In this document: positions 17,503 through 34,214 of the stretch, in pieces
How positions within the stretch are numbered: position 1 is the stretch's first letter
Layout: every line of letters begins with the position of its first letter
Origin: Brachybacterium fresconis
Lineage (GTDB): Bacteria; Actinomycetota; Actinomycetes; Actinomycetales; Dermabacteraceae
Reading direction: 5' to 3'
Assembly: GCF_017876515.1 (NCBI RefSeq)
Contig: NZ_JAGIOC010000001.1
Span: forward strand, 558,001 to 622,000
DNA length: 64,000 bases
Notes under the pieces: generated by a model
What the model saw: the letters and a program-made list of their open reading frames with translations, nothing else
What the model was told of the DNA's origin: nothing
The model's database searches: none
Position numbers and translations under genes: made by a program

Positions 17503-17553
17503 CTCGGGGGTCGACGTGGCTCGGGGGTCGACGTGGCTCAGCGTTCGACGTAG
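17503..17553 (-). repeat. Three 17-bp tandem units at the recO/uppS junction
   Basis: Two perfect copies of CTCGGGGGTCGACGTGG (17503-17519 and 17520-17536) are followed by a diverged copy (17537-17553) that forms the last codons and stop of recO. The pattern suggests tandem duplication of the recO 3' end into the spacer. No function is evident. Confidence 0.6.
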
Positions 17554-18272: not shown

Positions 18273-18537
18273 GGTCCCTCGAGCCTACGACCGCGCCCGC
18301 TCCCGCCGCCGGAGGTCGGGGCGGTGTCGGCCGCGAGGTCCCTCACGGCCACGAGGTGCGCGCGCCCCGACGGCGCCGGCCGGAGAGCCCGAGCGCCCGA
18401 GAGCCCCAAGACCCGTGCGCCGTCAGGAGCCGCCGCACCGAACGGTCGAGCCCGGGCGCGGCAGGGTCCGACCCGTGCATGATGGGGGTATCATCCGTCG
18501 GCTGCGGCCGACGGCCACCGATCCGGAGGGAGGCGCC

Positions 18538-19260
18538 ATGGGGATCCTCGGGATGCTGCGCCGCGACGACAGGACCACGGATACCGCCCGCGAGGCGCTG
18601 CAGGAGGCCCGGCGCACGAAGGGCTCCGACCCGTCCGACGGCGGCGCCCTGCAGCGCCTGGTCGAGACCTTCCGCGATCTGGGCCTCGACGGGAAGCTGG
18701 CATACTCCTCGGCCCAGGACGTCGCGCGGCGGGCTCAACGGGGACGGGCCCGCAAGCGACCCGAGAAGGCGATCCGTCGCCTGGTGCGCAAGCATCGTCG
18801 TGGTGTGACCGTGGCGGGTTTCCTCACCGGTCTCGGCGGCATCTTCACGCTGCCGATCCTGCTGCCCACGAACGTCGTCGAGTTCTACGTGCAGTCCACC
18901 CGGATGGTCGGCGCGATCGCCGTGGTGCGGGGCTACGACCTGGACGACGAGGAGATCCGCGTGCGGGTGCTGGCCGCCCTGCTCGGGGAGGAGTCCGGGG
19001 ACGTGCTGAAGAACATCGGTCTCGGACCGGTGGCGGGCGCCGCGACGCGCACCGTGGCCCGGCGCCTGCCCACGAGCACCGAATCGGCGGTGGCCAGTGC
19101 GATCGGGGGCCGGATGCTGCGGAAGTTCGGCCTGCGCTCGGTGCGTCTGTTCGGCAAGGCGATCCCGGGTCTGGGCGGTGTGCTCGGGGCGATCTCGGAC
19201 CGCCGCCAGCTGGCGAAGATCGCGAAGGCGGCGAAGGCTGGGTTCCCGGCGGTGCGCTGA
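18538..19260 (+). CDS. EcsC-like protein
   Basis: Protein of 240 residues with no catalytic motif I can name. After a charged N-terminal third (about residues 1-75, rich in Arg/Lys) comes a hydrophobic TVAGFLTGLGGIFTLPILLP. Then come VEFYVQSTRMVGAIAVVRGYD and a Gly-rich second half (GRMLRKFGLRSVRLFGKAIP, GLGGVLGAISDRRQL). This order resembles EcsC-domain proteins, whose biochemical role is unclear. The ATG at 18538 follows a strong GGAGGGAGG. The 265-bp region before it contains TATCAT at about 18489-18494 as a possible -10 element. Confidence 0.6.
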   Translation: MGILGMLRRDDRTTDTAREALQEARRTKGSDPSDGGALQRLVETFRDLGLDGKLAYSSAQDVARRAQRGRARKRPEKAIRRLVRKHRRGVTVAGFLTGLGGIFTLPILLPTNVVEFYVQSTRMVGAIAVVRGYDLDDEEIRVRVLAALLGEESGDVLKNIGLGPVAGAATRTVARRLPTSTESAVASAIGGRMLRKFGLRSVRLFGKAIPGLGGVLGAISDRRQLAKIAKAAKAGFPAVR

Positions 19261-19552
19261 CACGCCGCTGACCCGCCGCGCTGATTCAGCGTTCGGCGGC
19301 GCCTGATCGGCCTCTGCCCGGCCGCCGTGCCACGGCGCACCGGCCGCGGAACGGCGGCACCGCCCCGTGGTCGGGGTGGGCTGCGGGCGATAGGTCCCGG
19401 AAATCGGCCGTGCAGCCGCGCGCGCCCAGAGCACGTACGACGTCATCCCGGCGACCAATCCGATTCCGCTTTCGCTGCGAACCACTCCGTCGCCGCGGGA
19501 AAGACCTCGCGGTGTCAGACACCGTCTCGCACCATCCCAGGAGTCACCGATC
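19261..19552 (+). other. Intergenic region upstream of the NRPS operon
   Basis: A non-coding stretch of about 290 bp separates the EcsC-like gene from the secreted peptide. It should hold the operon promoter, but no convincing -35/-10 pair stands out. No iron box of the DmdR/IdeR type (TTAGGTTAGGC and its complement) was seen. The one clear element is the 15-bp palindrome at 19510-19524. Confidence 0.5.
19510..19524 (+). promoter_or_regulatory. 15-bp palindrome before the NRPS operon (candidate operator)
   Basis: CGGTGTCAGACACCG is a perfect 7-1-7 inverted repeat ending 28 bp before the ATG of the secreted-peptide gene. It is a plausible site for a dimeric repressor, or it could form a small hairpin in the mRNA leader. 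No regulator gene lies in the cluster, so the binding protein is unknown. Confidence 0.45.
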
Positions 19553-19765
19553 ATGACCCAGCGCACCCGACGCCTCGCCGTCACCACCGCCGCCCTCTCC
19601 CTCGCGGGGATCACTCTGGCCGCCCCGGTGGCGGGCGCCGCCGAGACCCCCTCCGCCACGAGCAGTTCCGGATCCTCGCTGGTCCAGGGCCCTGTCATCG
19701 ACGGGCCGCTCGTGAGCATCGACGGGCTGGTGGAGACCCTGCAGCTGGGCCAGTTCCAGCAGTAG
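19553..19765 (+). CDS. Small secreted peptide upstream of the NRPS
   Basis: Unrecognised 70-residue protein. It has a Sec signal peptide: Arg-rich start MTQRTRRL, a hydrophobic core ending in ALSLAGITLAAPV, and a likely cleavage site AGA/AET after residue 29. The mature part (about 41 residues) has a Ser/Thr-rich stretch and then VQGPVIDGPLVSIDGLVETL, with the repeated short motif V/S-I-D-G. It has no Cys or Lys. AGGAG nine bases upstream of the ATG supports expression. The gene ends 55 bp before the NRPS start on the same strand with no terminator seen, so co-transcription is likely. A role in the NRPS pathway is inference only. Confidence 0.7.
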   Translation: MTQRTRRLAVTTAALSLAGITLAAPVAGAAETPSATSSSGSSLVQGPVIDGPLVSIDGLVETLQLGQFQQ

Positions 19766-19820
19766 CTCCCCGGCGCGCCGCCAGCCCACCCGTCGCCGTC
19801 CAGCGAAGGAGATCCCCTCC

Positions 19821-22800
19821 GTGACAAGGCGCACGTCCCCGGACGCATCCACGGTCACCGACCGCATCCCGCTCACCGCCGCCCAGCGCGGCATCTGGTA
19901 CGCCCAGCACCTGGACCCCGACAACCCGACCTTCCAGATCGGTCAGTACCTCGACCTGAGCGGAAGTATCGACCCCGCCCTGCTCCGTATCGCAGTGACC
20001 AAGATGGTCGCCGACATCGATGCGCTCAGCCTGCGCATCCACGAGGACGCCGATGGTCCCTGCGGACAGATCCGCCGTCCGCAGCCCACGGCGGATCTGC
20101 TGCGGGTTCGGGACCTGCGGGACCTGGATGAGGACCGCGCCGAACAGGACGCCCTGGCCGCCATGGACCGGGAGATGTCCACCCCGCGGGCGCTGGACGG
20201 CGAGGACCTCTTCGGGGCGACGCTCTTTGTGGTCTCCGAGGACCGAGCCCTCTTCTTCCTGCGCGTCCACCACATCCTGCTCGACGGGTACTCCGCAGTC
20301 ATCGCCCTGCGCTATGTGGCCGAGACCTACTCCCGGATGGCCCGGCTCCTCCCGCGCACCCGGCTGCCGCGTCCTCTCGCCGCCGGACTCGCCCACGTCC
20401 TGGCCGCCGTGCCCTCGCCGCTGCCCACGCTCGGCGCTCTGCTGAGCGATCTCGAGGACTACGAGAACTCCGAGCAGCATGGCGCCGATGCCTCCTACTG
20501 GACGCAGGCCCTCGCCGAGGCGGAGCCTCCCGAAGGACTCGAGGGGCGGTCCCAGGGCATCGCGGCGACCGTCGTCCGTGTCGGTCTCCCCATCGGGCCC
20601 GAGCGGGCCGAGCGCCTCGCCGCCCTCGAGAGCACCCTGCCCAAGACCGTCATCGCGGCGATCGCCGTCTACCTGGCACGATTGACGGGGACCGAGGACG
20701 TGCCCATCGGTCTCCCGGTCACCGCTCGTCGGGGACAGGTCGCGAAGACGACGCCGTCCATGCTCTCGAGCGTTCTCCCGCTGCGCGTGCCGGTACGCCT
20801 GTCCGACACGCTCGCCGACGTCGTCACCAGTTCCGGTGACGCCGTCCGCGCCGCTGTCGGCCATCAGCGCTTCCGGCTCGAGCAGATCGACGCCGCCCCC
20901 ACGCACCCCGGGCCGTCGGTCAATCTGCTGCCGGTCATCGACGATCTCCGCCTCGGCACCGTTCGTGGGACCGTGCACATCCTGTCGACCGGCCCCGTTC
21001 GCGATCTCTCGATCGTCCTCAGCGACCTGCGCAGCGGTGCCGCCGACCCCGTGCTGCGGCTCGAGGGCGACGCCTCGCTGCACACCACGGAGACCCTGCA
21101 CGACCACGGCACGCGTCTGCTCCGCCTGCTGGACGCGATGCTCGAGGCTCCGCAGGACACGTCCGCCCTCCTCGCCCCGCTGACGGGGGACGAGGAGCGG
21201 GAGGCGCTGCTCGCCCTGGGACACGGCGCCCGGGACCCCGCTCCGGCGGGCACCATCCTCGAGGCCGCCGCCGAGACCGTGCACCGTCGAGGCACGGACC
21301 GGGCGGTGGTGGCCGACGACGGTCACCGCAGCTTCGCCGACCTCGAGGCCGAGTCGACCCGCCTGGCCCACTACCTCATCCGGGAGGGCGTCGAGCCCGG
21401 TGACCGGGTGGCGGTCCGCGTCGGTCGCACGGTGCGCCTGCCCGAGATCGTCCTGGGGATCCTGCAGGCAGGAGCCGCCTACGTGCCCTTGGACCCCGCC
21501 TACCCGGTCGGCCGCGTCACGCACATGCTGGAGGACGCCGCCCCCGCCGCGCTGCTGACCACCGTGGACCAGCAGGCGCAGGACCGCGAGGACGGAGCAG
21601 CGTGGACCCTGCCCATCCTGCTGGTCGACTCCGAGACGGCGTCGTGGCGCCGCGCCTCCGCCTCGGCCACGCACCTGCCCCCGGTCGGACCCGAGGACCT
21701 CGCCTACGTGATCTTCACCTCCGGCAGCACCGGTCGACCCAAAGGCGTCGCCGTCGAGCATCGGTCCCTGCGTGTTCTCCTGGAGCAGCACCGCCGGACG
21801 ATCCATGATCCCGCCACCGCTCGACTGGGCCGACCGCTGCGCGCAGCCCACACCGCGGGCCTCTCGTTCGACGCCTCGTGGGATCCCCTGCTGTGGCTGG
21901 TCTCCGGCCACGAGCTGCACGTCATCGACGACGAGGTGCGCCGCGACCCCGAACGGCTCGCCGCGCATCTCGCCGATCAGCACATCGACGCCGTCGAGAC
22001 CACCCCCTCCTTCGCCGAGGCCCTGCTCGCGGCCGGAATGCTGGAGCGTGGCCACCACCCGACGGAGATCGCACTCGGCGGGGAGGCCGTGGGAGATGCC
22101 CTCTGGAACACCCTCGCCGCCCGGGAGGATGTCCATGCGGTGAACCTCTACGGCCCCACCGAGTCGACGGTGGACAGTCTGGTCGCCCCCATCCAGGAGG
22201 GCAGGCGGCCCCACCTCGGGCAGTCCGTGGACGGCAGCCGTCACTATGTCCTCGACGCCGGACTCTCACCGGTGCCCGACCGTGGGATCGGCGAGCTCTA
22301 TCTCGCCGGCCACGGCGTCGCACGCGGGTACATCGGCCGCCCGGGACTGAACGCCCAGCGCTTCGTCGCGGACCCCTTCGCGGCCGACGGCTCGCGCATG
22401 TACCGCACGGGTGACCGCGTCCGCCGCCGCGCCGACGGGACCCTGCGGTTTCTCGGACGTCAGGACGATCAGGTCAAGATCCGCGGCTATCGCGTCGAGA
22501 TCGAGGAGGTCGAGACGGCGATGCGCCGCCATCCCGGCATCACCTCCGCCGCCGCGATCGTCCGGGGCGAAGGCGCGACGGCCCGTCTGATCGGCTACGT
22601 CGCCGCGGCCTCCGGGCATTCGGACGCCGAGCTCGCCGCCGAGGTCCGTGACGGGCTGCGCGATCAGCTCCCGGAATACATGGTGCCGTCTGCGGTGCTC
22701 GCCCTCGAGCGGCTTCCGGTGACCGCGAACGGCAAGCTCGATCGGGCGGCGCTGCCCGATCCGGGCACCGCGGGCGTTCGCGGCACCAGAGCGCCCCGCA

Positions 22801-25800
22801 CCGCGACGGAGCGCGCCGTGGCCGCGGCGTTCTCCGCGGTGCTCGAGCAGGAGGGCATCGGAGCAGAGGACGACTTCTTCGCGGTGGGCGGCCACTCGCT
22901 GCTGGCCACCCGCCTCGCGGCGCGCTTGACGGACGACCTCGATCGCACCGTCTCCGTGCGGGACGTCTTCGAGCATCCCACCGTCGCGGCCCTCGCCCGC
23001 GTCCTGAACGGCTCCCCCGGCGGCCGAGCGATGACGCGGCCCGAACGCGGGGAGCGCCCCGACCCCGTCCCCGCCTCGCTGAACCAGCGTCGCCTGTGGT
23101 TCCTGAACCGCCTCGAGCCCGATTCCGCGGCCTACGCGGTCCCGGTCGTCCTGGAGCTCGAGGGCGAGCTCGACACGGCCGCCCTGCGCGGCGCGCTCGA
23201 GGACGTCCTGGCCCGCCACGAGCCGCTGCGCACCGTGCTGCCCGCGGTGGACGGCGAACCCGTCCAGCGCATCCTTCCCGCCGACGGGATCGCGTCCCCG
23301 CTCCTGGCCGTCGACGTCCCCGCCGACCGCCTCGACGCCGTCGTCGCCGCGGAGATCCACCGGCCGTTCGACATCACGCGGGAGATCCCGCTGCGCGCCG
23401 TGCTGCTGCGCACGACCCTCCAGCACGCGGTGCTCGTGATCACCATGCACCACATCGCCACCGACGGCTGGTCCCTGGCGCCGCTCGCCCGTGACCTCGG
23501 GGAGGCGTATACGGCCCGCACCGCCGGCCGTGACGCATTCCCCGAGCCGTTGGCCGTCGACTACGCGGACGCCGCGATGTGGCAGCGTGGCCGCCTGGGC
23601 TCCGCGGACGACCCGGACAGCGAGCTGTCGCGCCAGAGCGCCTTCTGGCGTCGCGCCCTCGCGGACGCACCGCCGGAGATCTCCCTGCCCCGCGATCGAG
23701 CCCGTGGGACCGCGGATCCCGAGAACGCCGACCAGCGCGGCGTCGGCGAGATCCGTCTCGACCTGGACCCGCAGCACCACGCCGCCCTGCGCTCCCTGGC
23801 CGCCGAGCACCGCACCAGCCTGTTCATCGTGCTGCACACGGCCCTCACCACCGCCCTGCATCAGCACGGCACGGGGGACGACGTGGTGATCGGCACCGCG
23901 GTGGCCGGGCGCGGCGATCCCCGGTTGGACGACATCGTGGGCTTCTTCGTGAACACCGTCGCCCTGCGCACCTCGCTTCATGGCGACCCGAGCCTCTCCG
24001 AGCTCATCGAGCGGGTACGGGTGGCGAACACCGAGGCCTACGCCCATCAGGAGCTGCCCTTCGACGTCGTCGTCGACTCCGTGCGGCCGCCCCGGGACCC
24101 GGACCGGCCCCCGGTCGTCCAGGTGCTGCTGACCCTGCAGAACGCGCCGTCGGCCCGACTCGAGCTCCCGGGCGTGCAGGTCCGGGTCCCCACCCCCACG
24201 ACCAGCGCCGGGGTGAAGGCGGACCTCATGATCGACGTCACCCCCGAGGGCGGCGACGGTCCGCTCTCCGTCGTCCTGGGGTACGACCGGGGCATCTTCG
24301 ACGGGTCCACGGTGGAGCGTCTGCGGGATTCCCTCGATCGCGTCCTCGCTCAGTTCGTCGCCGACCCCGAAGCACGCCTCGGCGACCTGCCCACCGTCGG
24401 ACCGGAGGCCCTGCGCCGATTCGCGGAGCGGGAGCAGGGGCCCGCGGCACCGGCCCCCACGACGGTGCTGGACCGGCTCGCCCGCACGGCCCAGGAGCAG
24501 CCCGACGCGCCCTCCCTCCGCGATTCCCGCGGCGAGCTCACCGCCGCCGAGCTCCTCGGCCGGGTCGAATCCTTCGCCGCCGGGCTCGCTGAGATCGGTG
24601 TGCGCCGCGGGGACCACGCGGTCATCGCCCTGCCCCGCACCGCCGATGCCGTCACCGTCCTTCTCGGTGCGCTGCGCGCCGGCGCCGTCGCGGTCCCCGT
24701 CGACTCCGCTCATCCCGACGCCCGGCTCACGCGGGTGCTCGCCGCGGCCGGGGCGCGCGTGATCGTCACCGCCGACCCCGCGCGCTTCGCCGCGCTGCTG
24801 ACCACCTCGGACGGCGCGCCGGCCGCACCGGTGCTGGCCGTGGAGGACCTCCCGACCGGTGGAGCCGTCCCGGCGCCGCCGGGGCCGGAGGACGCCGCAT
24901 ATCTCGTGCACACCTCGGGCACGACCGGTGCCCCCAAGGGGGTCCAGGTCTCCCACCGAGCCCTGGGCACCGTGCTGGTCCAACACGAGGAGACCCTCAT
25001 CGGCCCTCTGCGCGAGCGGCTGGGTCGGGCCCCGCGCATGCTCCACCTCTCCGGTCTCTCGTTCGACGCCGCTTGGGACCCGGTCCTGTGGCTCGTCGCC
25101 GGCAGCGCCCTGCTCATCGCCGACGACACCGTGCACGCCGATGCCGAGTCCGTCGTGCGCCTGGTGCAGGAGGAGCGCATCGACGTCGTCGAGACGACCC
25201 CGTCCTACGCCGCGCAGCTGGTGGCCGTCGGGCTCGAGGACGCGGTCGCCGACGGGTCCGGGCGGCTGCTGCTGGCACTCGGGGGCGAGGCCGTGCCGCC
25301 GTCGCTGTGGGATCTGACGGCACGCTCCGAGGCCCTGGACGGGTGGAACCTGTACGGCCCCAGCGAGTCCACGATCGACGCCCTGGTCGCCCCGATCGTG
25401 CCCGGCCCCGTGGTGATCGGAGACCCCGTGGCCGGTGTGCGGGCGCGGGTGCTGGATCGTCTCCTGCGCCCGGTCCCGCCCGGCGTCGAGGGTGAGCTGT
25501 ACCTCTCCGGGGCGACCCTCGCCGACGGGTACCGGAGCCGCGCGGCCGAGACCGCGACGCGCTTCGTGGCCGATCCCACCGCCGACGGCGAGCGGATGTA
25601 CCGCACCGGCGACATCGTGCGCCGTTCGCCGGAGGGCGCCCTGCGCTTCCTGCGCCGCGCCGATGATCAGGTCAAGCTGCGCGGCTACCGCATCGAGACC
25701 GGCGACATCGAGAGCGCGCTGGAGCGATCACCGGGGGCCCGCGCCGCCGTCGCCCTGGTCACGGCGCCCGGAGGACCGGGCACCGAGCGCATCGCGGCCT

Positions 25801-28800
25801 GGGTGGCCGGGGTCCTCGAGGTGGATTCGGTGCGGGAGACGGCGCGCCGAGAGCTGCCGGCCTATATGGTCCCCACCACGATCTCCGTCCTCGGCCAGCT
25901 CCCTCTGACCTCGAACGGCAAGGTCGATACGGCCGCGCTGCCCGAGCCGCAGCGCGAGCCGTCGTCCGAGCGTGCCCCCCGCGAGGAGGCCGAGAAGCGG
26001 ATGTGCCGTCTCCTCGCCGAAGTGCTCTCGATCTCCTCCGCGGGCCCCGAGGAGGATTTCTTCGCCCTCGGCGGCCACTCCCTGCTCGCCGTCGAGCTGG
26101 TCGGCCGCATCCGCGACGAGTTCGGAGTCGGCCTGCCGGTGCGCACAGTCTTCGACTCCCCCACCCCGGCGCAGCTGCTCGCCGCGGTGCGCGGGGGCGA
26201 TCACGCACGCGGCCGCGCCGTGGTGGAGGCCGACCCGCCCGTTCCTTCCGCCCCGGTGCGCCTGCGCGAGTGGGCCCGGGAGAATCCGCGCCCTCCCCAC
26301 GAGGAGCTCCCCCTCTCCCCCGACCAGGCGCGACTGTGGTTCCTCCACCAGCTGGAGCCGGACTCCGCCGAATACACGGTGGTCCTCGAGGCCGACCTCG
26401 AGGGCGACCTCGACGTCGATGCCCTCGGGAGCGCGGTCGACGACCTCGTGGCCCGTCACGAGATCCTGCGCACCAGCTTTCCCGAGATCGGCGGGCGCCC
26501 CGTCCAGCGGATCCAGGATCCGCCGTCGGGCATCCTGCGCCCGGGCCCCGTCGACGTCACCGCCGGATTCCCGCTCGCCACCGGGATCCCCCTGCGCGCC
26601 GGGCTGACGGAGACCGGCGCGCACCGCTGGCGTCTCACGCTCGCCGTGCACCACATCGCCACGGACGGCGCCTCGCTCGCCCCGCTGGTGCGCGATCTCG
26701 CCACGGCGTACGGAGCCCGCACCGCGGGGATGCGCTCCGCGCGGCGCCCGCTCGACGTGCAGTTCGCCGATCATGCTCGCCACCAGCAGGCCCTGCACGG
26801 TGAGCGGCGCGATCACGACCGGCATCTCGAGGCCTGGACCGAGCGCCTGCGGGATGCGCCCCAGGAACTGGACCTTCCCGCCGACGGGCGGCGTCCCGAG
26901 GCCACCACGCGCCACGCACGCACGCTGCGCTTCTCGCTCCCGGAAGCGGTCACACGTCCTCTTCTCGCCACCGGTGCGGCGCGCGGCGCCAGCGGCTTCC
27001 ACACCTGGTTCGCCGCTCTCGCGGGCTATCTGCAGCGCATCGGCGCGGGGGACGACCTCGTCATCGGCACCCCCTCCGCAGGCCGTTCCGATCCCGATCT
27101 CACCGACCTCATCGGCTTCTTCGTCACCACGCTGCCGATCCGGACGCACGTCGACGGTGAGCAGCCGTTCCACCACGCCGTCGGGCGGGCGCGCGAGGCC
27201 GTCCTGCACGCCATGGAGCACGACGGCGTGCCCTTCGAGCGCATCGTCGAGGCGGTGGCCCCCGCACGGCAGCTGGGCCGCCACCCGCTGTTCCAGACCA
27301 TGCTCTCCGTGGAGGAGGCGAGCGGCTCGGCCCTCGAGCTGCCGGGAGTGGCCGTCACCCGCGTGGAGCCCGACTCGACCGGGGCGGCCAAGGTGGACCT
27401 CTCCATCACCCTCCGCCCCCGCGACCAGGACGGGGTGGACGGCGTGCTCGAGTACGACGCGAATCTGTTCAGCGAGGACGCGGCGCGCGGCTTCGTCGAC
27501 CGCTGGGTCGGCTTCCTCGAAGGCATCGCCACGGATCCCGGCCGCAGCCTGCAGGAGATCCCTGCCGGTCCGCCGTCGACGCCCGTGGAGCCGTGGCAGG
27601 CCACCATCGCCCCTCAGAGCGTGCTCGAGGCGCTGTCCGCCTCCGCCGCGGACCGGCCCCGGTCCACCGTGCTCGTCGGGGATGAAGGCACCCTCACCGC
27701 GGGGGAGCTCGCCGCGCAGGTCGATGTCATGGCGGGCGGGCTGCGGGCAGCGGGCGCCCTCGCCGGTGACCGCATCGCACTGGCCGTGCGCCGCGGCACC
27801 GAGTCCGTCGCCGGCATGCTGGCCATCTGGCGGGCCGGGGCGGTCGCCGTCCCCGTGGACATCACCCTGCCCGGTCCGCGGATCGCGGCCATGCTGCGCA
27901 CCGCCTGCCCCTCGTGGGTGCTGCGCACCGGAGATGCCGCCGAAGAGGGGGCGGCGCGAGCCGCCCGGGAGGCCGGGATCCCTGCCGATCGCATCCTGCG
28001 GTGCGCGGAGCTGCCCGCAGGGACGGCACCCGTCGACCTGCCGACGGGCTCCGAGGCGGCGTACCTCATCTTCACCTCGGGCACCACCGGGATGCCGAAG
28101 GGCGTCCAGGTCCCCCACCGGGCGCTGACCCAGCTCCTCATGAGCCACCGCTCGACCCTGCTCCCCGCCCCCGATCGGCGCCGGCTGCGCCTCGCCCACA
28201 CCACGGGGGTCGGCTTCGACGCCTCTCTGGATCCGGTGCTGTGGGCGGCGGCGGGCCACGAGGTGCACGTCATCGGCGACGACGTGCGCCGGGATCCCGA
28301 GGCCCTGGTATCCGCCCTCGCGAGACACCGCATCGATGCCTGGGAGACCACACCTGGCTACGTCGACGCCCTGCGCGGGCAGACCGCGCTCGCCGATCTC
28401 CTCGACGCCCGGGCCCCCGAGGACCCCTTCGTCCTCCTGCTCGGCGGCGAACCCGTTCAGCCGGCCCTGTGGTCCTGGGTGCACCAGCGCCGGGCCGTCC
28501 AGGGATGGAACCTCTACGGCCCCACCGAAGCAGGGGTGGACACCCTGGTCGCGGCGATCGACGAGAACCCCTCCCCCGTCCTCGGGGCACCGACCTGCGG
28601 CACGGTCGCCCGTGTCCTCGATGCTCACCTGCGTCCGGTTCCCGTGGGCAGCGTCGGAGAGCTCTGGCTCGCCGGAGACCAGCTCGCCGACGGCTATCTC
28701 GGTGCCGCGCCCGCTACCGCCGAGCGCTTCGTCGCCGACCCGTTCGCGCTCGACGGATCGCGCATGTACCGCACCGGCGACCTCGTCGCCGTGCGCGACG

Positions 28801-30320
28801 CGCTCCCCGGCCTCCGCCCCCGAGTCGTCGCACTCGGCCGCAGCGACGATCAGGTCAAGATCCGCGGGCACCGCATCGAACCGGGTGAGGTCGCCGCGGT
28901 GCTCGAGGACCGCCCCGAAGTCGCACAGGCCGTGGTCCGCCCGGTCCCCAGTCCACGCGGAACGGTCCTGGCCGCGTGGACGGTGCCGACCGAGCGGGCT
29001 GATGTCGTCGCGCTGCCGGATCTGCTCGAGCAGGTCGCCGCCGCCCATCTGCCCGAGTACATGCAGCTCGCCGCGATCACCGTCGTCGACACCATCCCGC
29101 TGACGAGAAATGGGAAGGTCGACGTCCAGGCGCTGCCCGGACCCACCTTCGCCGGGGGCGGCGGACGTGCACCGCGGGACGGGGCCGAGGCCGCCGTGGC
29201 CGCAGCGTTCGCGGAGGTGCTCGGGGTCCAGGACGTCCGAGCCGACGATTCCTTCTTCGCCCTCGGTGGCCACTCCTTCGTCGCCCGACCGGCAGTGGCC
29301 GCGATCGGTGACGCCCTGGGCCGGGATGTCCCCGTCCATGCCCTGTTCCGCGCCCCGACCGTGTCGCAGCTCGCGATCGAGGCCGACGGCGCCCCTCCGC
29401 GCTCTGGCGACGGCGTCGGCAGCCGGGACCGGCCTGCGGCGCCCGATCTCGAGGAATCGCTGTCGTCGCTGCTGCCCCTGCGTCCTGACGGGCGGGGGCA
29501 CCCGCTGTTCGCCGTGCACCCCGCGAGCGGACTCGCCTGGAGCTTCTCGAGCCTTCTCCCGCACCTGCGCATGCCTCGCCCCGTGGTCGGACTGCAGATG
29601 CCCGGGCTCACCACGGACGAGCCGCCTCACGGCACAGAGCGGACGCTCGACGAACTGCTGGATCACTACCTCGAGGCGATGCGCACCGTCCAGCCGCACG
29701 GCCCCTACCACCTGCTGGGGTACTCGCTCGGCGGCAGGATCGCGCACCATCTCGCCGCCCGCCTGCAGGCCGACGGCGAGGAGATCGCCCTGCTCGCCGT
29801 GCTCGACTCCTACCCGCGACGGGAGGGGTCGCTGCGGGGCGCCGAGGACGAGCAGGCGCGGTGGCGGGGCCCCCTGGAGGCTCTGGACGTCCCCGTTCCC
29901 GAGGGCGAGCTGGATGCCGCGGCGGCGGTCGGCGCCCTGCGCGCGGCCGGCAATGCTCTCGGGCAGCTGCCCGTGCGCACGGCGGAACGCATGGCCTCGC
30001 GCTTCACCCACCTCGGAGAGCTCCTGGACGCCGCGGGCACCCCCGTCGTCGACAGTGACCTGGCCGTTCTCGAGGCGACCCGGGACGTTCCTTGGGACCG
30101 ACCTGGCCCGGATGCCTGGATCCCTCACGTCACCGGCGAGGTCGCCGTGCGCCGGATCGATGCCCGCCACGACGACCTGCTCGACGAACCGGCGGCGCAG
30201 AAGGTCGCCGGCGCCCTGGATGCGCTGGCGAAGAGCGACGGAAACGACCAAACCGCAGGCGAGTCCGCTCCGAACCACCGGGAACGCAATACCACCGATG
30301 GAGACGGGACCACCAGATGA
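19821..30320 (+). CDS. Three-module non-ribosomal peptide synthetase with thioesterase
   Basis: NRPS of 3499 residues. Domain order with approximate residues: C1 15-450 (HHILLDGYS), A1 480-990, T1 1000-1065 (GGHSLLAT), C2 1085-1530 (HHIATDGWS), A2 1550-2040, T2 2055-2120 (GGHSLLAV), C3 2150-2580 (HHIATDGAS), A3 2600-3100, T3 3115-3190 (GGHSFVAR), TE 3215-3470 (GYSLGG). There are no epimerase, methyltransferase or oxidase domains. The ten-residue specificity codes, read by aligning to GrsA, are DADEAGLVDK, DADEAGLIDK and DADELGLVDK. They are near identical and have acids at positions 239, 278 and 331, so all three modules may load the same, perhaps basic, amino acid (inference). C1 and the TE (HPASGLAW, QPHGPYHLLGYSLGG) resemble EntF. 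C1 suggests an acyl or aryl starter supplied in trans. Start is GTG with GAAGGAG nine bases upstream. Confidence 0.95.
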   Translation: MTRRTSPDASTVTDRIPLTAAQRGIWYAQHLDPDNPTFQIGQYLDLSGSIDPALLRIAVTKMVADIDALSLRIHEDADGPCGQIRRPQPTADLLRVRDLRDLDEDRAEQDALAAMDREMSTPRALDGEDLFGATLFVVSEDRALFFLRVHHILLDGYSAVIALRYVAETYSRMARLLPRTRLPRPLAAGLAHVLAAVPSPLPTLGALLSDLEDYENSEQHGADASYWTQALAEAEPPEGLEGRSQGIAATVVRVGLPIGPERAERLAALESTLPKTVIAAIAVYLARLTGTEDVPIGLPVTARRGQVAKTTPSMLSSVLPLRVPVRLSDTLADVVTSSGDAVRAAVGHQRFRLEQIDAAPTHPGPSVNLLPVIDDLRLGTVRGTVHILSTGPVRDLSIVLSDLRSGAADPVLRLEGDASLHTTETLHDHGTRLLRLLDAMLEAPQDTSALLAPLTGDEEREALLALGHGARDPAPAGTILEAAAETVHRRGTDRAVVADDGHRSFADLEAESTRLAHYLIREGVEPGDRVAVRVGRTVRLPEIVLGILQAGAAYVPLDPAYPVGRVTHMLEDAAPAALLTTVDQQAQDREDGAAWTLPILLVDSETASWRRASASATHLPPVGPEDLAYVIFTSGSTGRPKGVAVEHRSLRVLLEQHRRTIHDPATARLGRPLRAAHTAGLSFDASWDPLLWLVSGHELHVIDDEVRRDPERLAAHLADQHIDAVETTPSFAEALLAAGMLERGHHPTEIALGGEAVGDALWNTLAAREDVHAVNLYGPTESTVDSLVAPIQEGRRPHLGQSVDGSRHYVLDAGLSPVPDRGIGELYLAGHGVARGYIGRPGLNAQRFVADPFAADGSRMYRTGDRVRRRADGTLRFLGRQDDQVKIRGYRVEIEEVETAMRRHPGITSAAAIVRGEGATARLIGYVAAASGHSDAELAAEVRDGLRDQLPEYMVPSAVLALERLPVTANGKLDRAALPDPGTAGVRGTRAPRTATERAVAAAFSAVLEQEGIGAEDDFFAVGGHSLLATRLAARLTDDLDRTVSVRDVFEHPTVAALARVLNGSPGGRAMTRPERGERPDPVPASLNQRRLWFLNRLEPDSAAYAVPVVLELEGELDTAALRGALEDVLARHEPLRTVLPAVDGEPVQRILPADGIASPLLAVDVPADRLDAVVAAEIHRPFDITREIPLRAVLLRTTLQHAVLVITMHHIATDGWSLAPLARDLGEAYTARTAGRDAFPEPLAVDYADAAMWQRGRLGSADDPDSELSRQSAFWRRALADAPPEISLPRDRARGTADPENADQRGVGEIRLDLDPQHHAALRSLAAEHRTSLFIVLHTALTTALHQHGTGDDVVIGTAVAGRGDPRLDDIVGFFVNTVALRTSLHGDPSLSELIERVRVANTEAYAHQELPFDVVVDSVRPPRDPDRPPVVQVLLTLQNAPSARLELPGVQVRVPTPTTSAGVKADLMIDVTPEGGDGPLSVVLGYDRGIFDGSTVERLRDSLDRVLAQFVADPEARLGDLPTVGPEALRRFAEREQGPAAPAPTTVLDRLARTAQEQPDAPSLRDSRGELTAAELLGRVESFAAGLAEIGVRRGDHAVIALPRTADAVTVLLGALRAGAVAVPVDSAHPDARLTRVLAAAGARVIVTADPARFAALLTTSDGAPAAPVLAVEDLPTGGAVPAPPGPEDAAYLVHTSGTTGAPKGVQVSHRALGTVLVQHEETLIGPLRERLGRAPRMLHLSGLSFDAAWDPVLWLVAGSALLIADDTVHADAESVVRLVQEERIDVVETTPSYAAQLVAVGLEDAVADGSGRLLLALGGEAVPPSLWDLTARSEALDGWNLYGPSESTIDALVAPIVPGPVVIGDPVAGVRARVLDRLLRPVPPGVEGELYLSGATLADGYRSRAAETATRFVADPTADGERMYRTGDIVRRSPEGALRFLRRADDQVKLRGYRIETGDIESALERSPGARAAVALVTAPGGPGTERIAAWVAGVLEVDSVRETARRELPAYMVPTTISVLGQLPLTSNGKVDTAALPEPQREPSSERAPREEAEKRMCRLLAEVLSISSAGPEEDFFALGGHSLLAVELVGRIRDEFGVGLPVRTVFDSPTPAQLLAAVRGGDHARGRAVVEADPPVPSAPVRLREWARENPRPPHEELPLSPDQARLWFLHQLEPDSAEYTVVLEADLEGDLDVDALGSAVDDLVARHEILRTSFPEIGGRPVQRIQDPPSGILRPGPVDVTAGFPLATGIPLRAGLTETGAHRWRLTLAVHHIATDGASLAPLVRDLATAYGARTAGMRSARRPLDVQFADHARHQQALHGERRDHDRHLEAWTERLRDAPQELDLPADGRRPEATTRHARTLRFSLPEAVTRPLLATGAARGASGFHTWFAALAGYLQRIGAGDDLVIGTPSAGRSDPDLTDLIGFFVTTLPIRTHVDGEQPFHHAVGRAREAVLHAMEHDGVPFERIVEAVAPARQLGRHPLFQTMLSVEEASGSALELPGVAVTRVEPDSTGAAKVDLSITLRPRDQDGVDGVLEYDANLFSEDAARGFVDRWVGFLEGIATDPGRSLQEIPAGPPSTPVEPWQATIAPQSVLEALSASAADRPRSTVLVGDEGTLTAGELAAQVDVMAGGLRAAGALAGDRIALAVRRGTESVAGMLAIWRAGAVAVPVDITLPGPRIAAMLRTACPSWVLRTGDAAEEGAARAAREAGIPADRILRCAELPAGTAPVDLPTGSEAAYLIFTSGTTGMPKGVQVPHRALTQLLMSHRSTLLPAPDRRRLRLAHTTGVGFDASLDPVLWAAAGHEVHVIGDDVRRDPEALVSALARHRIDAWETTPGYVDALRGQTALADLLDARAPEDPFVLLLGGEPVQPALWSWVHQRRAVQGWNLYGPTEAGVDTLVAAIDENPSPVLGAPTCGTVARVLDAHLRPVPVGSVGELWLAGDQLADGYLGAAPATAERFVADPFALDGSRMYRTGDLVAVRDALPGLRPRVVALGRSDDQVKIRGHRIEPGEVAAVLEDRPEVAQAVVRPVPSPRGTVLAAWTVPTERADVVALPDLLEQVAAAHLPEYMQLAAITVVDTIPLTRNGKVDVQALPGPTFAGGGGRAPRDGAEAAVAAAFAEVLGVQDVRADDSFFALGGHSFVARPAVAAIGDALGRDVPVHALFRAPTVSQLAIEADGAPPRSGDGVGSRDRPAAPDLEESLSSLLPLRPDGRGHPLFAVHPASGLAWSFSSLLPHLRMPRPVVGLQMPGLTTDEPPHGTERTLDELLDHYLEAMRTVQPHGPYHLLGYSLGGRIAHHLAARLQADGEEIALLAVLDSYPRREGSLRGAEDEQARWRGPLEALDVPVPEGELDAAAAVGALRAAGNALGQLPVRTAERMASRFTHLGELLDAAGTPVVDSDLAVLEATRDVPWDRPGPDAWIPHVTGEVAVRRIDARHDDLLDEPAAQKVAGALDALAKSDGNDQTAGESAPNHRERNTTDGDGTTR

Positions 30321-30532
30321 TGAACCCCTTCGACGACACCGACGCCACCTTTCGTGTCCTCGTCAACGAGCGCGGACAGCACTCCCTGTGGCCCGAGGCC
30401 GCGGACCTGCCCCGGGGGTGGGTCGCCGTCTTCGGTCCAGCGGCCCGTGCCGAATGCCTCGAGTACGTCGAGGCCTCCTGGCTCGACATCACGCCCCGGC
30501 GTCTGGACGACGGAGCGCGAGCCGCCTCGTGA
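30317..30532 (+). CDS. MbtH-like protein
   Basis: Small NRPS accessory protein of 71 residues that binds adenylation domains and is often needed for their folding and activity. The family signature is complete: NPFDDTDATFRVLVNERGQH (20 residues from position 3), SLWPEA, PRGWVAVFGPA and CLEYVEASWLDITPRRL. Its ATG overlaps the NRPS stop by four bases and its stop overlaps the next GTG, which ties it to this NRPS. Confidence 0.95.
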   Translation: MMNPFDDTDATFRVLVNERGQHSLWPEAADLPRGWVAVFGPAARAECLEYVEASWLDITPRRLDDGARAAS

Positions 30533-31536
30533 TATCCCTGCGCGGCGTCGTCAAGCACTACGGCGACCGGACAGCGCTCGACGGGGTCGATCTCGAGGTG
30601 CCCGCGGGCACCGTGCAGGGACTGTTGGGACCCAACGGCGCCGGAAAGACCACGATCGTGCGGGTGCTCACCACGCTCCTGGCACCGGACCGGGGGGACG
30701 CGCTGGTCGCAGGTTCCTCGGTGCGCACTGACCCCGCCGGCGTGCGTCGCGGCCTGGGAGTCTCCGGCCAGTACGCCGCCGTCGACGAGAAGTTGACGGG
30801 TTTCGAGAACCTGCACATGGTCGCCCGCCTGTACGGCATGCCGCGACGTGCTGCCGCGGGCCGCGCCCGGGAGCTTCTCCACGACTTCCGCCTCGACGAC
30901 GTCGCCGACAGTCTCCTCGCCGGACAGTACTCCGGCGGGATGCGCCGGCGACTCGACCTCGCCGGAGCCGTCATCGCCCGTCCTCCGGTCGTGATCCTCG
31001 ACGAGCCCACGACCGGGCTCGATCCGCGAGGTCGCCGCGACACCTGGGATGCCGTGACGTCCCTGACCGATGACGGGGTCACCGTGCTGCTGACCACTCA
31101 GTATCTGGAGGAGGCCGATCAGCTCGCCGACTCGATCGCCGTGATCGACCACGGCCGGATCGTCGCCGACGGGACTGCGGCCGCGCTCAAGAAGCGGGTC
31201 GGAGGCTCACGGATCGACATCACCCTCGCCGATGCCTCCGACGGCGCCGCGGCGCAGGACGCCCTCGCCCGCGCCGGGCATGATGCCGAACCGGATGAGC
31301 GCAGCAGACGGCTCACGCTCGCCGCCGACGACGGCGGACCAGGACTCTCGCGAGTGCTGACTGTCCTCGAGCGCGCAGGGATCGACGTCGAGGAGGCAGC
31401 GCTGCGACGCCCCACGCTCGACGAGGTCTTCCTCGGTCTCACCGGGGAGCCGACCCCGGAGACCGTCCCGGAGGAGCCCGACACCCCTCGGGCGCACCGC
31501 GTCGGCGCCGACGAGAGCGCGGAGGTCGCACGATGA
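30529..31536 (+). CDS. DrrA-type ABC transporter ATP-binding protein
   Basis: ATPase of an exporter, 335 residues. Walker A GPNGAGKTT, signature YSGGMRRRLDLAGA, Walker B VVILDEPTTGLDPRGR, and the C-terminal PTLDEVFLGLTGE typical of the daunorubicin-resistance DrrA group. The start is a GTG sharing four bases with the mbtH-like stop; a longer open frame upstream is the NRPS region in another phase. With the following permease it probably exports the NRPS product, and so may confer self-protection if the product is toxic. Confidence 0.92.
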   Translation: MISLRGVVKHYGDRTALDGVDLEVPAGTVQGLLGPNGAGKTTIVRVLTTLLAPDRGDALVAGSSVRTDPAGVRRGLGVSGQYAAVDEKLTGFENLHMVARLYGMPRRAAAGRARELLHDFRLDDVADSLLAGQYSGGMRRRLDLAGAVIARPPVVILDEPTTGLDPRGRRDTWDAVTSLTDDGVTVLLTTQYLEEADQLADSIAVIDHGRIVADGTAAALKKRVGGSRIDITLADASDGAAAQDALARAGHDAEPDERSRRLTLAADDGGPGLSRVLTVLERAGIDVEEAALRRPTLDEVFLGLTGEPTPETVPEEPDTPRAHRVGADESAEVAR

Positions 31537-32330
31537 GACCGGTCCGTGCCCTGCGCGACGGAGCCGTCATCGCCCGCCGCAACCTCATCGGCCTGCGCCG
31601 CACACCGGGCGCGCTGGTCACCGGGATCGCGCAGCCGATCCTGTTCGTGATCATCCTGGCGTACGTGTTCGGCGGCACGCTGGGTGGCGGGGCCTATCGG
31701 GAGTACCTCGTCGGAGGCATCCTCGCGCAGACCCTCACGTTCAACTCCTCCTTCACCGCGGTCTACCTCGCCAAGGACCTGCAGTCGGGGCTCATCGACC
31801 GTTTCCGCGCCCTGCCCATGTCACGGGTGGGCGTGATCCTCGGGCGCACCGTCTCCGACCTGGTGATGAGCGCAGTATCGGTGCTCGTCATCCTCGGTTG
31901 CGGGCTCGCCATCGGGTGGAGGGCGTCCACGGGGCCGGGGTCCGTCCTCCTCGCCTGCGCCCTCCTGCTGCTGTTCGCCTTCGCCGTGTCCTGGATCGGT
32001 GCCGTCATCGCGCTGACCGCCCGCTCCGTGGAGGTGGCGCAGAGCCTGGGGCTGCTGTGGCTGTTCCCGGTGTGCTTCATCTCCGGCGCGTTCGTCTCCG
32101 CTGACTCGCTTCCTTCTCCTCTGCAGGCCGTCGCGCGGTGGAACCCGATCACCGCGGTCGCGACCGCGGCGCGGCAGGGGTTCGGCAACGAGGTCCCACC
32201 CGGCTTCATGAGCCCGGGCGGGTGGCCGGGGGACAACCCGGTGCTGTACTCCGTCATCAGCTGCGCCGTCCTCATCGCGGTGTTCGCTCCCGCAGCGGTC
32301 TTCCAGTACCGGCGCATCAGCCGGCGATGA
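31533..32330 (+). CDS. ABC-2 type (DrrB-like) permease
   Basis: Membrane component of the exporter, 265 residues with six hydrophobic segments. An N-terminal RNLIGLRRTPGALVTGIAQP precedes the first helix, and LQSGLIDRFRALPMSR is the conserved cytoplasmic loop of the DrrB/ABC-2 family. The ending VAVFAPAAVFQYRRISRR-like tail (in the sequence LIAVFAPAAVFQYRRIS) is typical. Its ATG overlaps the ATPase stop by four bases and its stop overlaps the phosphopantetheinyl transferase start, so all are one operon. Confidence 0.9.
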   Translation: MRPVRALRDGAVIARRNLIGLRRTPGALVTGIAQPILFVIILAYVFGGTLGGGAYREYLVGGILAQTLTFNSSFTAVYLAKDLQSGLIDRFRALPMSRVGVILGRTVSDLVMSAVSVLVILGCGLAIGWRASTGPGSVLLACALLLLFAFAVSWIGAVIALTARSVEVAQSLGLLWLFPVCFISGAFVSADSLPSPLQAVARWNPITAVATAARQGFGNEVPPGFMSPGGWPGDNPVLYSVISCAVLIAVFAPAAVFQYRRISRR

Positions 32331-33028
32331 TCCGCATCCTGTCGACCACGGTGCCTGCGGTGCTCGAGGAATCGGGGAGGTTCGGCGGAGCCGCGAGCTT
32401 CGTGGCACCGGAGGACCTCATCGCGGCTCACGCACGGCGCGGCTCCCACGGGAACCGCACCCTTGCCGGCCGGGTGGCGCTGCGCCTCCTGCTGGCCCAT
32501 GCGCTCGGCGAGGCGCCCGCCCGGGCACGGGACATTCCCGTGGAGCGCACGTGCGAGCGCTGCGGGGCACCTCATGGGCGCCCCCGTGCCCCCGGGGTGT
32601 CGCTGTCCGGCTCCACCTCGGAGGATCAGGTGCTGGTGGCGGTCGCCGCACAGGAGGTGCAGGTCGGCGTCGACGTCCAGGCCCTTCCCACCAGGCTGTG
32701 GCCCGGCTTCGACGCTGCTGTCCTCCATCCGCGCGAGCGCACGCCTCGCCAAGCCGCTGGTCTGCCATCGGCCATCGCGGTGTGGACCCGCAAAGAGGCC
32801 TTGCTGAAAGCAGCGGGCGTCGGCCTGCAGATCAATCCCTCCCGGATCCCCCTGGAGAGCCGTTCCGAGACAGGGACAACCTGGTGGTCGACTGCCCGGG
32901 ATGCGCCCGAGGAGACGCGTGGCCTGCATGTGCGCGATCTCCCGGGTGCCGTGCCGCGGGCCGTCGCAGCTTCGGCGATCGTCCCCGTGCACGACATCGA
33001 CCTCGCCTCTGTGCTCTCGGCCCGGTGA
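32327..33028 (+). CDS. Sfp-type 4'-phosphopantetheinyl transferase
   Basis: Enzyme of 233 residues that moves phosphopantetheine from CoA to the Ser of carrier domains, here most likely the three T domains of the NRPS. Visible motifs are CERCGAPHGRP, VGVDVQ (metal-binding Asp; the usual second acid of D-x-E is Gln) and WTRKEALLKAAGVGL (the W/KEA motif of Sfp-type enzymes). The last gene of the operon, its ATG overlaps the permease stop. Having its own transferase makes the cluster self-sufficient. The Gln change is not necessarily damaging, because the Asp and the KEA Glu are kept. Confidence 0.88.
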   Translation: MIRILSTTVPAVLEESGRFGGAASFVAPEDLIAAHARRGSHGNRTLAGRVALRLLLAHALGEAPARARDIPVERTCERCGAPHGRPRAPGVSLSGSTSEDQVLVAVAAQEVQVGVDVQALPTRLWPGFDAAVLHPRERTPRQAAGLPSAIAVWTRKEALLKAAGVGLQINPSRIPLESRSETGTTWWSTARDAPEETRGLHVRDLPGAVPRAVAASAIVPVHDIDLASVLSAR

Positions 33029-33240: not shown

Positions 33241-34026
33241 TCATCGTGTCCGACCGTCCCCGGCGCTCCAATGCGCCACGGCGAAGACGCGGCGGAACGG
33301 CATCAGGACCCCACGACCGTCATCGGGGTACGCCGCGCACAGCCGTGCCCGGAACTCGGCCTCGAAGGCAGGACGCAGGGACGCGGGCAGAGCCTGGAGC
33401 GTGGGCCGGGCCCCGGTGCCGGAGACCCATTCGAAGACCGGATCCCTCCCGTGCAGCACATGAAGGTAGGTCGTCTCCCAGGCGTCGACCTCGAGTCCGA
33501 GTCGCTGCAGCGCGCGGACGTAGGTGCTCGCGTCGTACGAGGCGGGATGGGCGACGCCGACGAGATGCTCCGCGTACGGGTCCTCGGCGGCCAGGTCGTG
33601 GCGGATCGTGTGGATGGGCTCTGCGAAGTTTCCGGGGACCTGCATGGCCAGTACGCCACCCGGGGAGAGCAGGCCGGCCAGACGGGGGAGCTGCTCGAGA
33701 TGGTCCGGGACCCATTGCAGGGCCGCGTTGCTGACCAGGACGTCGATCGGCGCCGGGGGCTCCCAGGTGCGCAGGTTGCCGAGCTCGGCGTGGATCCCCG
33801 CGACGGACTCGGCACGGGCGATCATCTCCGGGCTGGAATCCACGGCGAGCACGCGGGCCGACGGCCACCTGGCGGTGAGGGCCGCAGTGAGGGTTCCCGG
33901 CCCGGCGCCGAGGTCGACCACCAGCTCCGGGGCCTCAGCGTCCACACGCGCGAGGAGGTCGGTGAAGGGTCTGCCCCGTTCGTCGCCGAACTTCAGGTAC
34001 TGCTCCGGGTCCCAGGCGTGCACCAT
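33241..34026 (-). CDS. tam: Trans-aconitate 2-methyltransferase
   Basis: SAM-dependent methyltransferase of 261 residues. It begins WDPEQYLKFGDERGRPFTDLL, highly characteristic of Tam, followed by the SAM-binding VVDLGAGPGTLTAAL and acidic loop AVDSSPEMI, then VSNAALQWVPDH. Tam esterifies trans-aconitate, a spontaneous inhibitor of aconitase, and so protects the TCA cycle. The ATG at 34026 has GGAGGGAG just upstream; a longer frame starting at 34080 would run through the operator. A 26-bp palindrome overlaps the -35 element. It faces the NRPS operon tail to tail across about 210 bp in which I see no gene. Confidence 0.92.
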   Translation of the reverse strand: MVHAWDPEQYLKFGDERGRPFTDLLARVDAEAPELVVDLGAGPGTLTAALTARWPSARVLAVDSSPEMIARAESVAGIHAELGNLRTWEPPAPIDVLVSNAALQWVPDHLEQLPRLAGLLSPGGVLAMQVPGNFAEPIHTIRHDLAAEDPYAEHLVGVAHPASYDASTYVRALQRLGLEVDAWETTYLHVLHGRDPVFEWVSGTGARPTLQALPASLRPAFEAEFRARLCAAYPDDGRGVLMPFRRVFAVAHWSAGDGRTR

Positions 34027-34052
34027 GGGTGCTCCCTCCGTCGTCCGATGTC

Positions 34053-34088
34053 GTCCTATCCAGATGTATCTTGACTTCAAGATACATC
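34053..34088 (-). promoter_or_regulatory. tam promoter with palindromic operator
   Basis: On the minus strand TTGAAG (34075-34080) and TAGGAC (34053-34058) are 16 bases apart and form a good promoter. A perfect inverted repeat with 12-bp arms GATGTATCTTGA and a 2-base centre spans 34063-34088 and covers the -35 box. It is AT-rich against a GC-rich background. The layout is that of a MarR/UrtR-type repressor site, as described for TamR in Streptomyces, but no such regulator gene is adjacent. Confidence 0.75.
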
Positions 34089-34214
34089 ACCGAGGACATC
34101 ACCATCGTCCGACAGGCGAATCCGATCGGTGCGTCGCGCCCGGGCCGCGTCGTGACGGTGCCGCTTCCAGGATCTCCTCGCGCTCTACAGGGAAGAGAAG
34201 CGGCCCGCGCCGGT

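Follow-up and report, generated by a model that had tools for sequence, protein, structure and literature searches.

In a stretch of 64,000 nucleotides from Brachybacterium fresconis (contig NZ_JAGIOC010000001.1, positions 558,001 to 622,000 of the forward strand; "the window" in the following), six genes at positions 19553..33028 form an operon around a non-ribosomal peptide synthetase (NRPS), and the first of them encodes a peptide of 70 amino acids that ends in GQFQQ. The locus raises the question of what this operon releases, what controls it and why a small ribosomal peptide stands at its head. In this study, we observed that the peptide gene and the NRPS gene occur together in every related locus, and this linkage is solid. 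The gene order, the linkage, a SigK-type promoter motif and a single adenylation signature are established at the sequence level. The explanation that we favor, with a probability of about one half, is a SigK/RskA-controlled operon that would release a lipotripeptide together with a dedicated partner peptide.

Linkage of the peptide gene to the NRPS gene

The peptide gene lies ahead of a trimodular NRPS gene in 29 of 29 related loci from six families (codes f1, f6, f7, f9, f13 and f19). Twenty of these loci come from a draw of 396 genomes of the order, eight from 324 genomes of family f19 and one (G020) from a search of 47 genomes. A gene-neighborhood search with NRPS and peptide had been suggested by a previous sequence-only reading of the locus; it returned the pairing throughout, with the peptide as the defining component. 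Within the order draw, a query with the thioesterase (TE) end of the NRPS gave matches in 25 genomes at E 1e-25; twenty of them were set apart (E at most 1.5e-54, the next match at 2e-36) and were taken as the family. A profile of the peptide C-terminus (peptide profile A2, 8 sequences) matched 21 of the 396 genomes, and the NRPS was present in 19 of them. Two weak peptide matches, in G219 and G184, had no NRPS in the sequence retrieved and were attributed to chance. The twentieth TE-end genome, G204, was missed by the profile, and its peptide was recovered by tblastn. In G341, peptide and NRPS sit on two different contigs, each at a contig end, which would fit a break of the contig between the two genes. 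The survey of family f19 gave eight NRPS loci, all with the peptide. In a class-wide draw, the peptide profile, whose sensitivity is unmeasured, matched one of 394 genomes at E 0.001, namely the window's own.

The order peptide, NRPS, MbtH, DrrA, DrrB and 4'-phosphopantetheinyl transferase (PPTase) is constant across the 29 loci to the extent that their contigs reach. DrrB and PPTase are visible in 28 of them, and the contig of G001 ends inside DrrA. The operon has a patchy distribution in Brachybacterium, with 6 of 38 genomes carrying it, and the window NRPS shares 86% identity with a protein of Brachybacterium sacelli. The flanks of 28 loci (G341 excluded) were compared over about 5 kb per side where the contig allows, skipping the first ~1.6 kb after the PPTase gene; gene-level matches occurred in 18 of 43 same-genus pairs and in none of 335 different-genus pairs. 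Since no flank matches between genera, the six genes appear to travel or persist as a unit. G170, G292, G890 and G001 have genes that are split, truncated or in part out of frame, and for these the longest open frame alone was used, with no repair. The flanks in the window (17538-19260 and 33490-35141) carry ordinary, unrelated genes, among them recO, an EcsC-family gene, a methyltransferase gene and a LysR regulator gene.

A contig search with the NRPS gave six distant NRPS loci and nothing else. At the locus L162 (G060:C200), relatives of MbtH, DrrA and DrrB follow an NRPS that is more distant from the family (2396-aa frame), and tblastn finds no GQFQ peptide there; the locus is possibly an outgroup of the system.

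In the window, the six open reading frames (ORFs) lie on the + strand at the coordinates given before, and the four junctions from the NRPS onwards are 4-bp overlaps (ATGA, GTGA, ATGA and ATGA), as that reading had described. The peptide gene (19553..19765, +) is separated by 55 nt from the NRPS gene (19821..30320, +; GTG start, 3499 aa). It is followed by an MbtH-like protein of 71 aa (30317..30532, +; PF03621, 91.4 bits), a DrrA-type ABC exporter ATPase of 335 aa with a GTG start (30529..31536, +; TIGR01188, 323.7 bits against a cut-off of 312.45; Pfam ABC_tran), a DrrB-like ABC-2 exporter permease of 265 aa (31533..32330, +; PF01061 ABC2_membrane, 105.5 bits) and a PPTase of 233 aa (32327..33028, +; PF01648, ACPS, 35.8 bits, cut-off 25). 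These Pfam and NCBIfam names and their common order bear out the proposed core of assembly, activation and export. The designation as a DrrAB exporter holds for DrrA, whereas the permease passes Pfam and fails the specific model TIGR01247 (79 bits, under the cut-off of 223.05). All NCBIfam matches of the PPTase are under their cut-offs, and from its length and context it is probably of the Sfp type. Two ACPS-superfamily genes were found in a search of the genome, the second being shorter, AcpS-sized and located elsewhere. The operon NRPS is the sole NRPS found by the Condensation family in the 4.63-Mb genome. The conserved unit contains no tailoring, resistance or uptake gene, as had been noted, and likewise no hydroxylase, receptor gene, acyl ligase or acyl carrier protein (ACP). 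In PADLOC, DrrA matches four defense models of the ABC-ATPase type, which was read as general ATPase similarity, and the same search gave nothing for the peptide or DrrB.

NRPS domains and predicted product

Pfam detects three AMP-binding, three PP-binding and one Thioesterase domain in the NRPS, and Condensation in five stretches for three domains, which gives three modules of condensation (C), adenylation (A) and carrier (T) domains followed by TE (C-A-T-C-A-T-C-A-T-TE). All domains lie on the + strand. The first module comprises C1 (19860..21158; motif HHILLDG), A1 (21273..22760; signature DA(W)E-I-L-L-V-D) and T1 (22812..23015; GGHS). The second comprises C2 (23067..24401; Pfam residues 1083-1527), A2 (24483..25946; DA(W)E-L-L-L-I-D) and T2 (25998..26189; Pfam 2060-2123), and the third C3 (26268..27590; HHIATDG), A3 (27648..29120; DA(L)E-L-L-L-V-D) and T3 (29199..29390; GGHS). 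The bounds of A1, T1, A2, C3, A3 and T3 are approximate and derive from motifs, together with Pfam for T1, C3 and T3. The TE (29502..30215; Pfam 3228-3465) carries GYSLGG, and its relatives in the Protein Data Bank (PDB) are 7crn and the EntF TE. Across the loci the active-site motifs of C, T and TE are kept, except in the broken frames (C1 of G170 and G890; T3 and TE of G292); the C3 of G204 deviates with NHIASDG.

The adenylation domains share one signature. Positions were numbered by motif. When aligned, the 87 A domains from the 29 NRPSs all show D235, A236, E278 and D331, and by motif the code reads DA(W/L/M/I)E-h-(L/V)-(L/F)-(V/I)-D; a deletion of one residue close to position 238 leaves W/L/M/I and D as alternatives for position 239. 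The signature was also compared with database hits, with 120 listed of 1777, where length was the sole criterion that divided family from other NRPSs and motifs served to locate the positions. Of these 120, 56 measure 3300-3700 aa, the window's own protein included. FDA[SA]-hydrophobic-DP together with E278 and D331 was found in 166 of 169 A domains of the 56 family-length hits and in 0 of 263 of the 64 others; E278 and D331 without the FDA motif occur in 32 of these 263 domains. In a tree, A1, A2 and A3 each form one group (support 1.0, 0.62 and 0.94, that for A2 being modest), and because each separates as a single group the trimodular design appears to be old. Since the single signature recurs in every module, all three modules should load one and the same amino acid. 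The acidic pocket residues suggest a basic or amide side chain, and Orn, Lys, Arg and Gln are all possible candidates. A-domain codes near to the signature are those for Gln (DAWQFGLIDK) and Orn (DVGEIGSIDK). The solved structures nearest to A1, linear gramicidin synthetase A and others, did not settle the substrate.

The first condensation domain resembles the starter, lipid-loading type. In the PDB ranking, C1 is nearest to the starter C of CDA synthetase I (6e-46) and the starter C of RzmA (8e-39), followed by EntF (9e-32). C2, taken as a control, matches elongation domains, with neither starter domain in its list. From the single A signature, the starter-type C1 and the conserved C, T and TE motifs, the predicted product would be an N-acyl homotripeptide that is released by the TE and exported; acylation, identity of the three residues and export are all inferred.

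SigK-type promoter motif and candidate regulator

The sequence-only reading had found no regulator in the locus. A SigK-type promoter motif ahead of the peptide and near rskA points elsewhere, and the operon probably has a stress-type regulator in trans, SigK/RskA. The motif CCAATCC-N16-CGAAC (19455..19482, +) lies ~70 nt ahead of the peptide start, and in this form it is the single match in the 64 kb, where 100 shuffles gave a mean of 0.01. The published consensus for SigK (ECF18/19) is CCATCC-N16-CCGAAT. Across the loci, a first form of the motif (CCAATCC, CCATCC, GCAATCC or CAATCC, N13-18, CGAA; at most 150 nt upstream) was found in 23 of 29 loci, comprising 21 of 21 plus 2 of 8 Microbacteriaceae loci, where ~0.11 would be expected for the 21 loci from 51 other matches in 1.46 Mb. 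Widened by CCAAACC, the form is present in 28 of 29 loci (0.15 expected), at a distance of 74-112 nt from the start codon in the loci listed. The available part of PMC7509140 states that SigK sites show high conservation among Actinobacteria. What was accessible of PMC7406223 gave no promoter consensus.

A test independent of the operon supports this assignment. A genome-wide search with the strict motif placed it within ~4 kb of rskA in each of the six Brachybacterium genomes that carry the operon. These six genomes contain 12 strict matches, nine near rskA, two at the operon and one elsewhere (G000), and a reversed control pattern gave one match in nine genomes. In the window's genome, two of the three strict matches adjoin a sigK-rskA pair, one of them reading into a fasciclin gene remnant. 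Both sites recur in G020, where they point into a complete fasciclin gene and a gene with a CHRD domain. The remnant (L129, G000:C1:2826028-2826242, minus strand) is a fasciclin (MPT83-like) gene cut to a 59-aa ORF, with most of the domain gone; G020 holds a 215-aa fasciclin protein at this place. The sigma factor of the window's genome is barely over the NCBIfam cut-off for SigK (227.6 versus 226), and the anti-sigma factor passes RskA_C. RskA_C was found in 12 of 12 operon genomes tested (of 29) and in 2 of 14 control genomes, a comparison that did not include operon-free relatives. From these sites we infer that expression of the operon might depend on SigK.

The GQFQ peptide, alternative explanations and known systems

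In all 29 loci the peptide ends with GQFQ and at most two further residues. Two Microbacteriaceae peptides, L174 (G1038) and L180 (G775), end in GQFQNK and not in GQFQ or GQFQQ. Conservation of the window peptide lies in its C-terminal segment (19679..19762, +), where G51, P52 and G66, Q67, F68 and Q69 are invariant in profiles A3 (18 locus sequences) and A5 (35 sequences, the window peptide plus 34 of 47 database hits); a further profile, A4, was built from 14 sequences. Leu, Ile, Gly and GP are abundant in the last 25-30 residues. Lys, Arg and His are absent from the last 40 residues in 21 of 29 peptides and number at most two in the others, Asp and Glu number two to seven, and Cys is found in no peptide. 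As judged by eye, 24 of 29 peptides, that of the window among them, have a cleavable-looking signal peptide, so that the description as a small secreted peptide fits most members and fails for the five with no evident signal. The peptides of G183, G170, G292 and G230 have 33 aa, a good Shine-Dalgarno sequence and no leader, and that of G388 lacks a typical leader. Some relatives from Citricoccus and Nesterenkonia have a hydrophobic N-terminus with no obvious cleavage site. Two 79-aa family peptides from Citricoccus (P0153 and P0154) are labelled 'ABC transporter permease' in UniRef and are evidently misnamed. A Pfam and NCBIfam scan of 18 peptide members gave no match over cut-off; the best Pfam E-value was 0.022 and the best NCBIfam match was MelC1 (E 4.9e-4; residues 1-40 of the window peptide, 17.2 of 120 bits). 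No modifying enzyme of the type acting on ribosomally synthesized and post-translationally modified peptides is found beside the peptide in the conserved unit.

Which role the peptide plays can be approached through the alternatives. The peptide ORF might be a cis-acting leader whose translation, possibly with arrest at GQFQ near the stop, sets NRPS expression. Conservation that reaches the C-terminus above a variable N-terminus would fit this idea, as would the strong, GC-rich hairpins in the interval from the peptide stop to the start of the NRPS that we saw by eye in 7 of the 20 loci folded (G183, G170, G292, G230, G239, G126 and G204; z -1.8 to -4.6). However, the other 13 intergenic regions, including that of the window, have no notable hairpin, the gap ranges from 46 to 162 nt across the loci measured, Rfam gave no match at the gathering threshold and most N-termini look like signal peptides, so we regard a leader as unlikely. 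Similarly improbable is a precursor of a short C-terminal peptide signal, with the NRPS product as its output. A secretion signal followed by a C-terminal GQFQ does recall secreted pheromone precursors of Gram-positive bacteria, but the conserved unit has no receptor gene, leaderless forms occur, and the C-terminus is near-invariant between families where pheromones usually diverge.

We consider two further possibilities very unlikely. The NRPS or its TE could use the peptide as a covalent substrate and couple the tripeptide to it, giving a ribosomal/non-ribosomal hybrid; one-to-one pairing agrees with this, and leaderless forms could remain in the cytosol with the NRPS. Against it, the operon contains no ligase, the peptide core has no invariant Lys, Ser or Cys, and Sec-type signals would take most peptides out before they meet the NRPS. 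The locus could also be an ordinary EntF-like siderophore operon in which an unrelated peptide is carried along as a passenger; the high NCBIfam ranks of the EntF and MxcG models and the EntF-like TE speak for this. A passenger would hardly be retained in 29 of 29 loci, the conserved unit lacks hydroxylase and uptake genes, C1 is of the starter type and the SigK-type motif is present. In addition, the dihydroxybenzoate (DHB)-AMP ligase model TIGR02275 was over cut-off in none of the 21 operon genomes scanned (of 29). Weaker relatives (E 1e-60 or better) occur in five of these 21 genomes, the nearest in G388 with 576.3 of 723.55 bits. A catechol siderophore is disfavored by this lack of a ligase over cut-off.

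Several observations weigh against the SigK/RskA-controlled pair of lipotripeptide and peptide. The motif was defined, and then widened, after inspection of the upstream sequences, and G890 has no motif. Five strict matches in G389 (two), G240 (two) and G126 (one) lie away from both rskA and the operon, and a sigK-region stretch read in Brevibacterium (L131) gave loose, unconvincing sites only. The deletion near position 238 makes the substrate code ambiguous, and NCBIfam ranks EntF high for module 1. On the side of the peptide, five of 29 have no evident secretion signal, and AlphaFold2, given the peptide alone or with 35 sequences, reached a predicted local distance difference test (pLDDT) score of 58 with no agreed fold. 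Over the last 28 codons, eight of 11 pairs have a ratio of nonsynonymous to synonymous differences (pN/pS) of 0.06-0.36, two very close pairs reach 1.08 and 1.04, and one pair of unequal length reaches 0.83; the pair G239/G204 was compared ungapped and is unreliable. As read from these codons, selection on the peptide sequence is visible at depth and not at the tips.

With these points weighed, we still prefer the SigK/RskA-controlled operon with lipotripeptide and partner peptide. In this model, SigK/RskA would release both products together, the PPTase would activate the NRPS and MbtH would support its A domains. The starter C domain would load an acyl group drawn from primary metabolism, the three modules would each incorporate one residue, polar or basic and identical in all three, the TE would free the N-acyl homotripeptide and the DrrAB-like exporter would move it out. 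The short acidic peptide, mostly lacking basic residues, would in most lineages have a Sec-type signal or a membrane anchor that takes it to the envelope or out of the cell. With the peptide gene in first position and strong hairpins behind it in some loci, it looks as if more peptide than enzyme might be made. Composition alone suggests that the acidic peptide and a possibly cationic lipotripeptide could form a physical pair. Our guess is that the peptide would be an obligate partner of the lipopeptide, as carrier, counter-ion, co-effector or protection of the producer. It is tempting to speculate further, and quite tentatively, that GQFQ peptide and lipotripeptide are halves of one agent, two-component or even a covalent hybrid, fixed in several actinobacterial families and released through SigK/RskA on an envelope or redox signal. 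In the literature searched, as far as accessible, we found no biosynthetic unit of this kind.

The peptides form a sharply defined small-protein family that accompanies one NRPS at each of the loci examined. Cluster mining could easily overlook this pairing, since the peptide is very small, frequently lacks an annotation and matches no family. The fixed nature of the pairing makes it a good experimental target. An orphan cluster hereby gains a testable regulator, product class and composition. If true, the model would extend SigK/RskA from surface antigens to secondary metabolism in Brachybacterium and Brevibacterium, where its signal could be sought; this signal is described as still unknown in the part of PMC7509140 available.

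In the literature searched, as far as the sources were accessible, there was no such peptide, no such operon as such, no product and no RskA/SigK control of an NRPS. The accessible portions of two papers on cheese-rind bacteria (PMC12911348 and PMC12889095) contain nothing on the cluster, and those of PMC12943173 and PMC10449499 no link of RskA or SigK to a non-ribosomal peptide. The sequence-only reading did not recognize the cluster as a known one, and the literature searched likewise showed neither the peptide nor the operon as such; an orphan NRPS cluster that is probably the same was nevertheless already noted in Brevibacterium. According to the part of PMC10588199 available, a conserved Brevibacterium NRPS family with 94 clusters in 80 of 98 strains has no MIBiG link and its product is unknown. 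As six of our 29 operon loci appear to lie in Brevibacterium (G389 and G240 among them), we presume that this cluster is probably the present operon; that account, in the part available, makes no mention of the peptide, SigK or a wider distribution.

Among characterized systems, the RzmA/HolA-type starter-C synthetases are alike in a Cs-like first C domain and in a cluster with no acyl ligase or ACP, and the PDB entries of the 7C1 group are RzmA-Cs, a type of domain that can use acyl-CoA (PMC7804268, as far as accessible). The present operon differs from them in three single-signature modules, MbtH, DrrAB, PPTase and a leading ribosomal peptide. EntF (enterobactin) and DhbF-type synthetases share the C-A-T...TE layout and a related TE, whereas here no aryl donor was found, the three modules carry a single signature and C1 is of the starter type. 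The M. tuberculosis SigK/RskA regulon (mpt70/mpt83) is alike in having SigK and RskA relatives, the promoter type and, in G020, a fasciclin gene alongside, as judged from the part of PMC7509140 available. In contrast to that regulon, the one proposed here would reach a biosynthetic operon ~2.2 Mb away. SigM reportedly controls NRPS genes in M. tuberculosis, in work from 2006 attributed to Raman and cited in PMC10449499, which would be a precedent for an extracytoplasmic function (ECF) sigma factor over an NRPS; the sigma factor here is a different one. In summary, NRPS operons are a known kind, and what appears new in this one is the constant pairing with a peptide, the three modules of one signature and a promoter of the SigK type.

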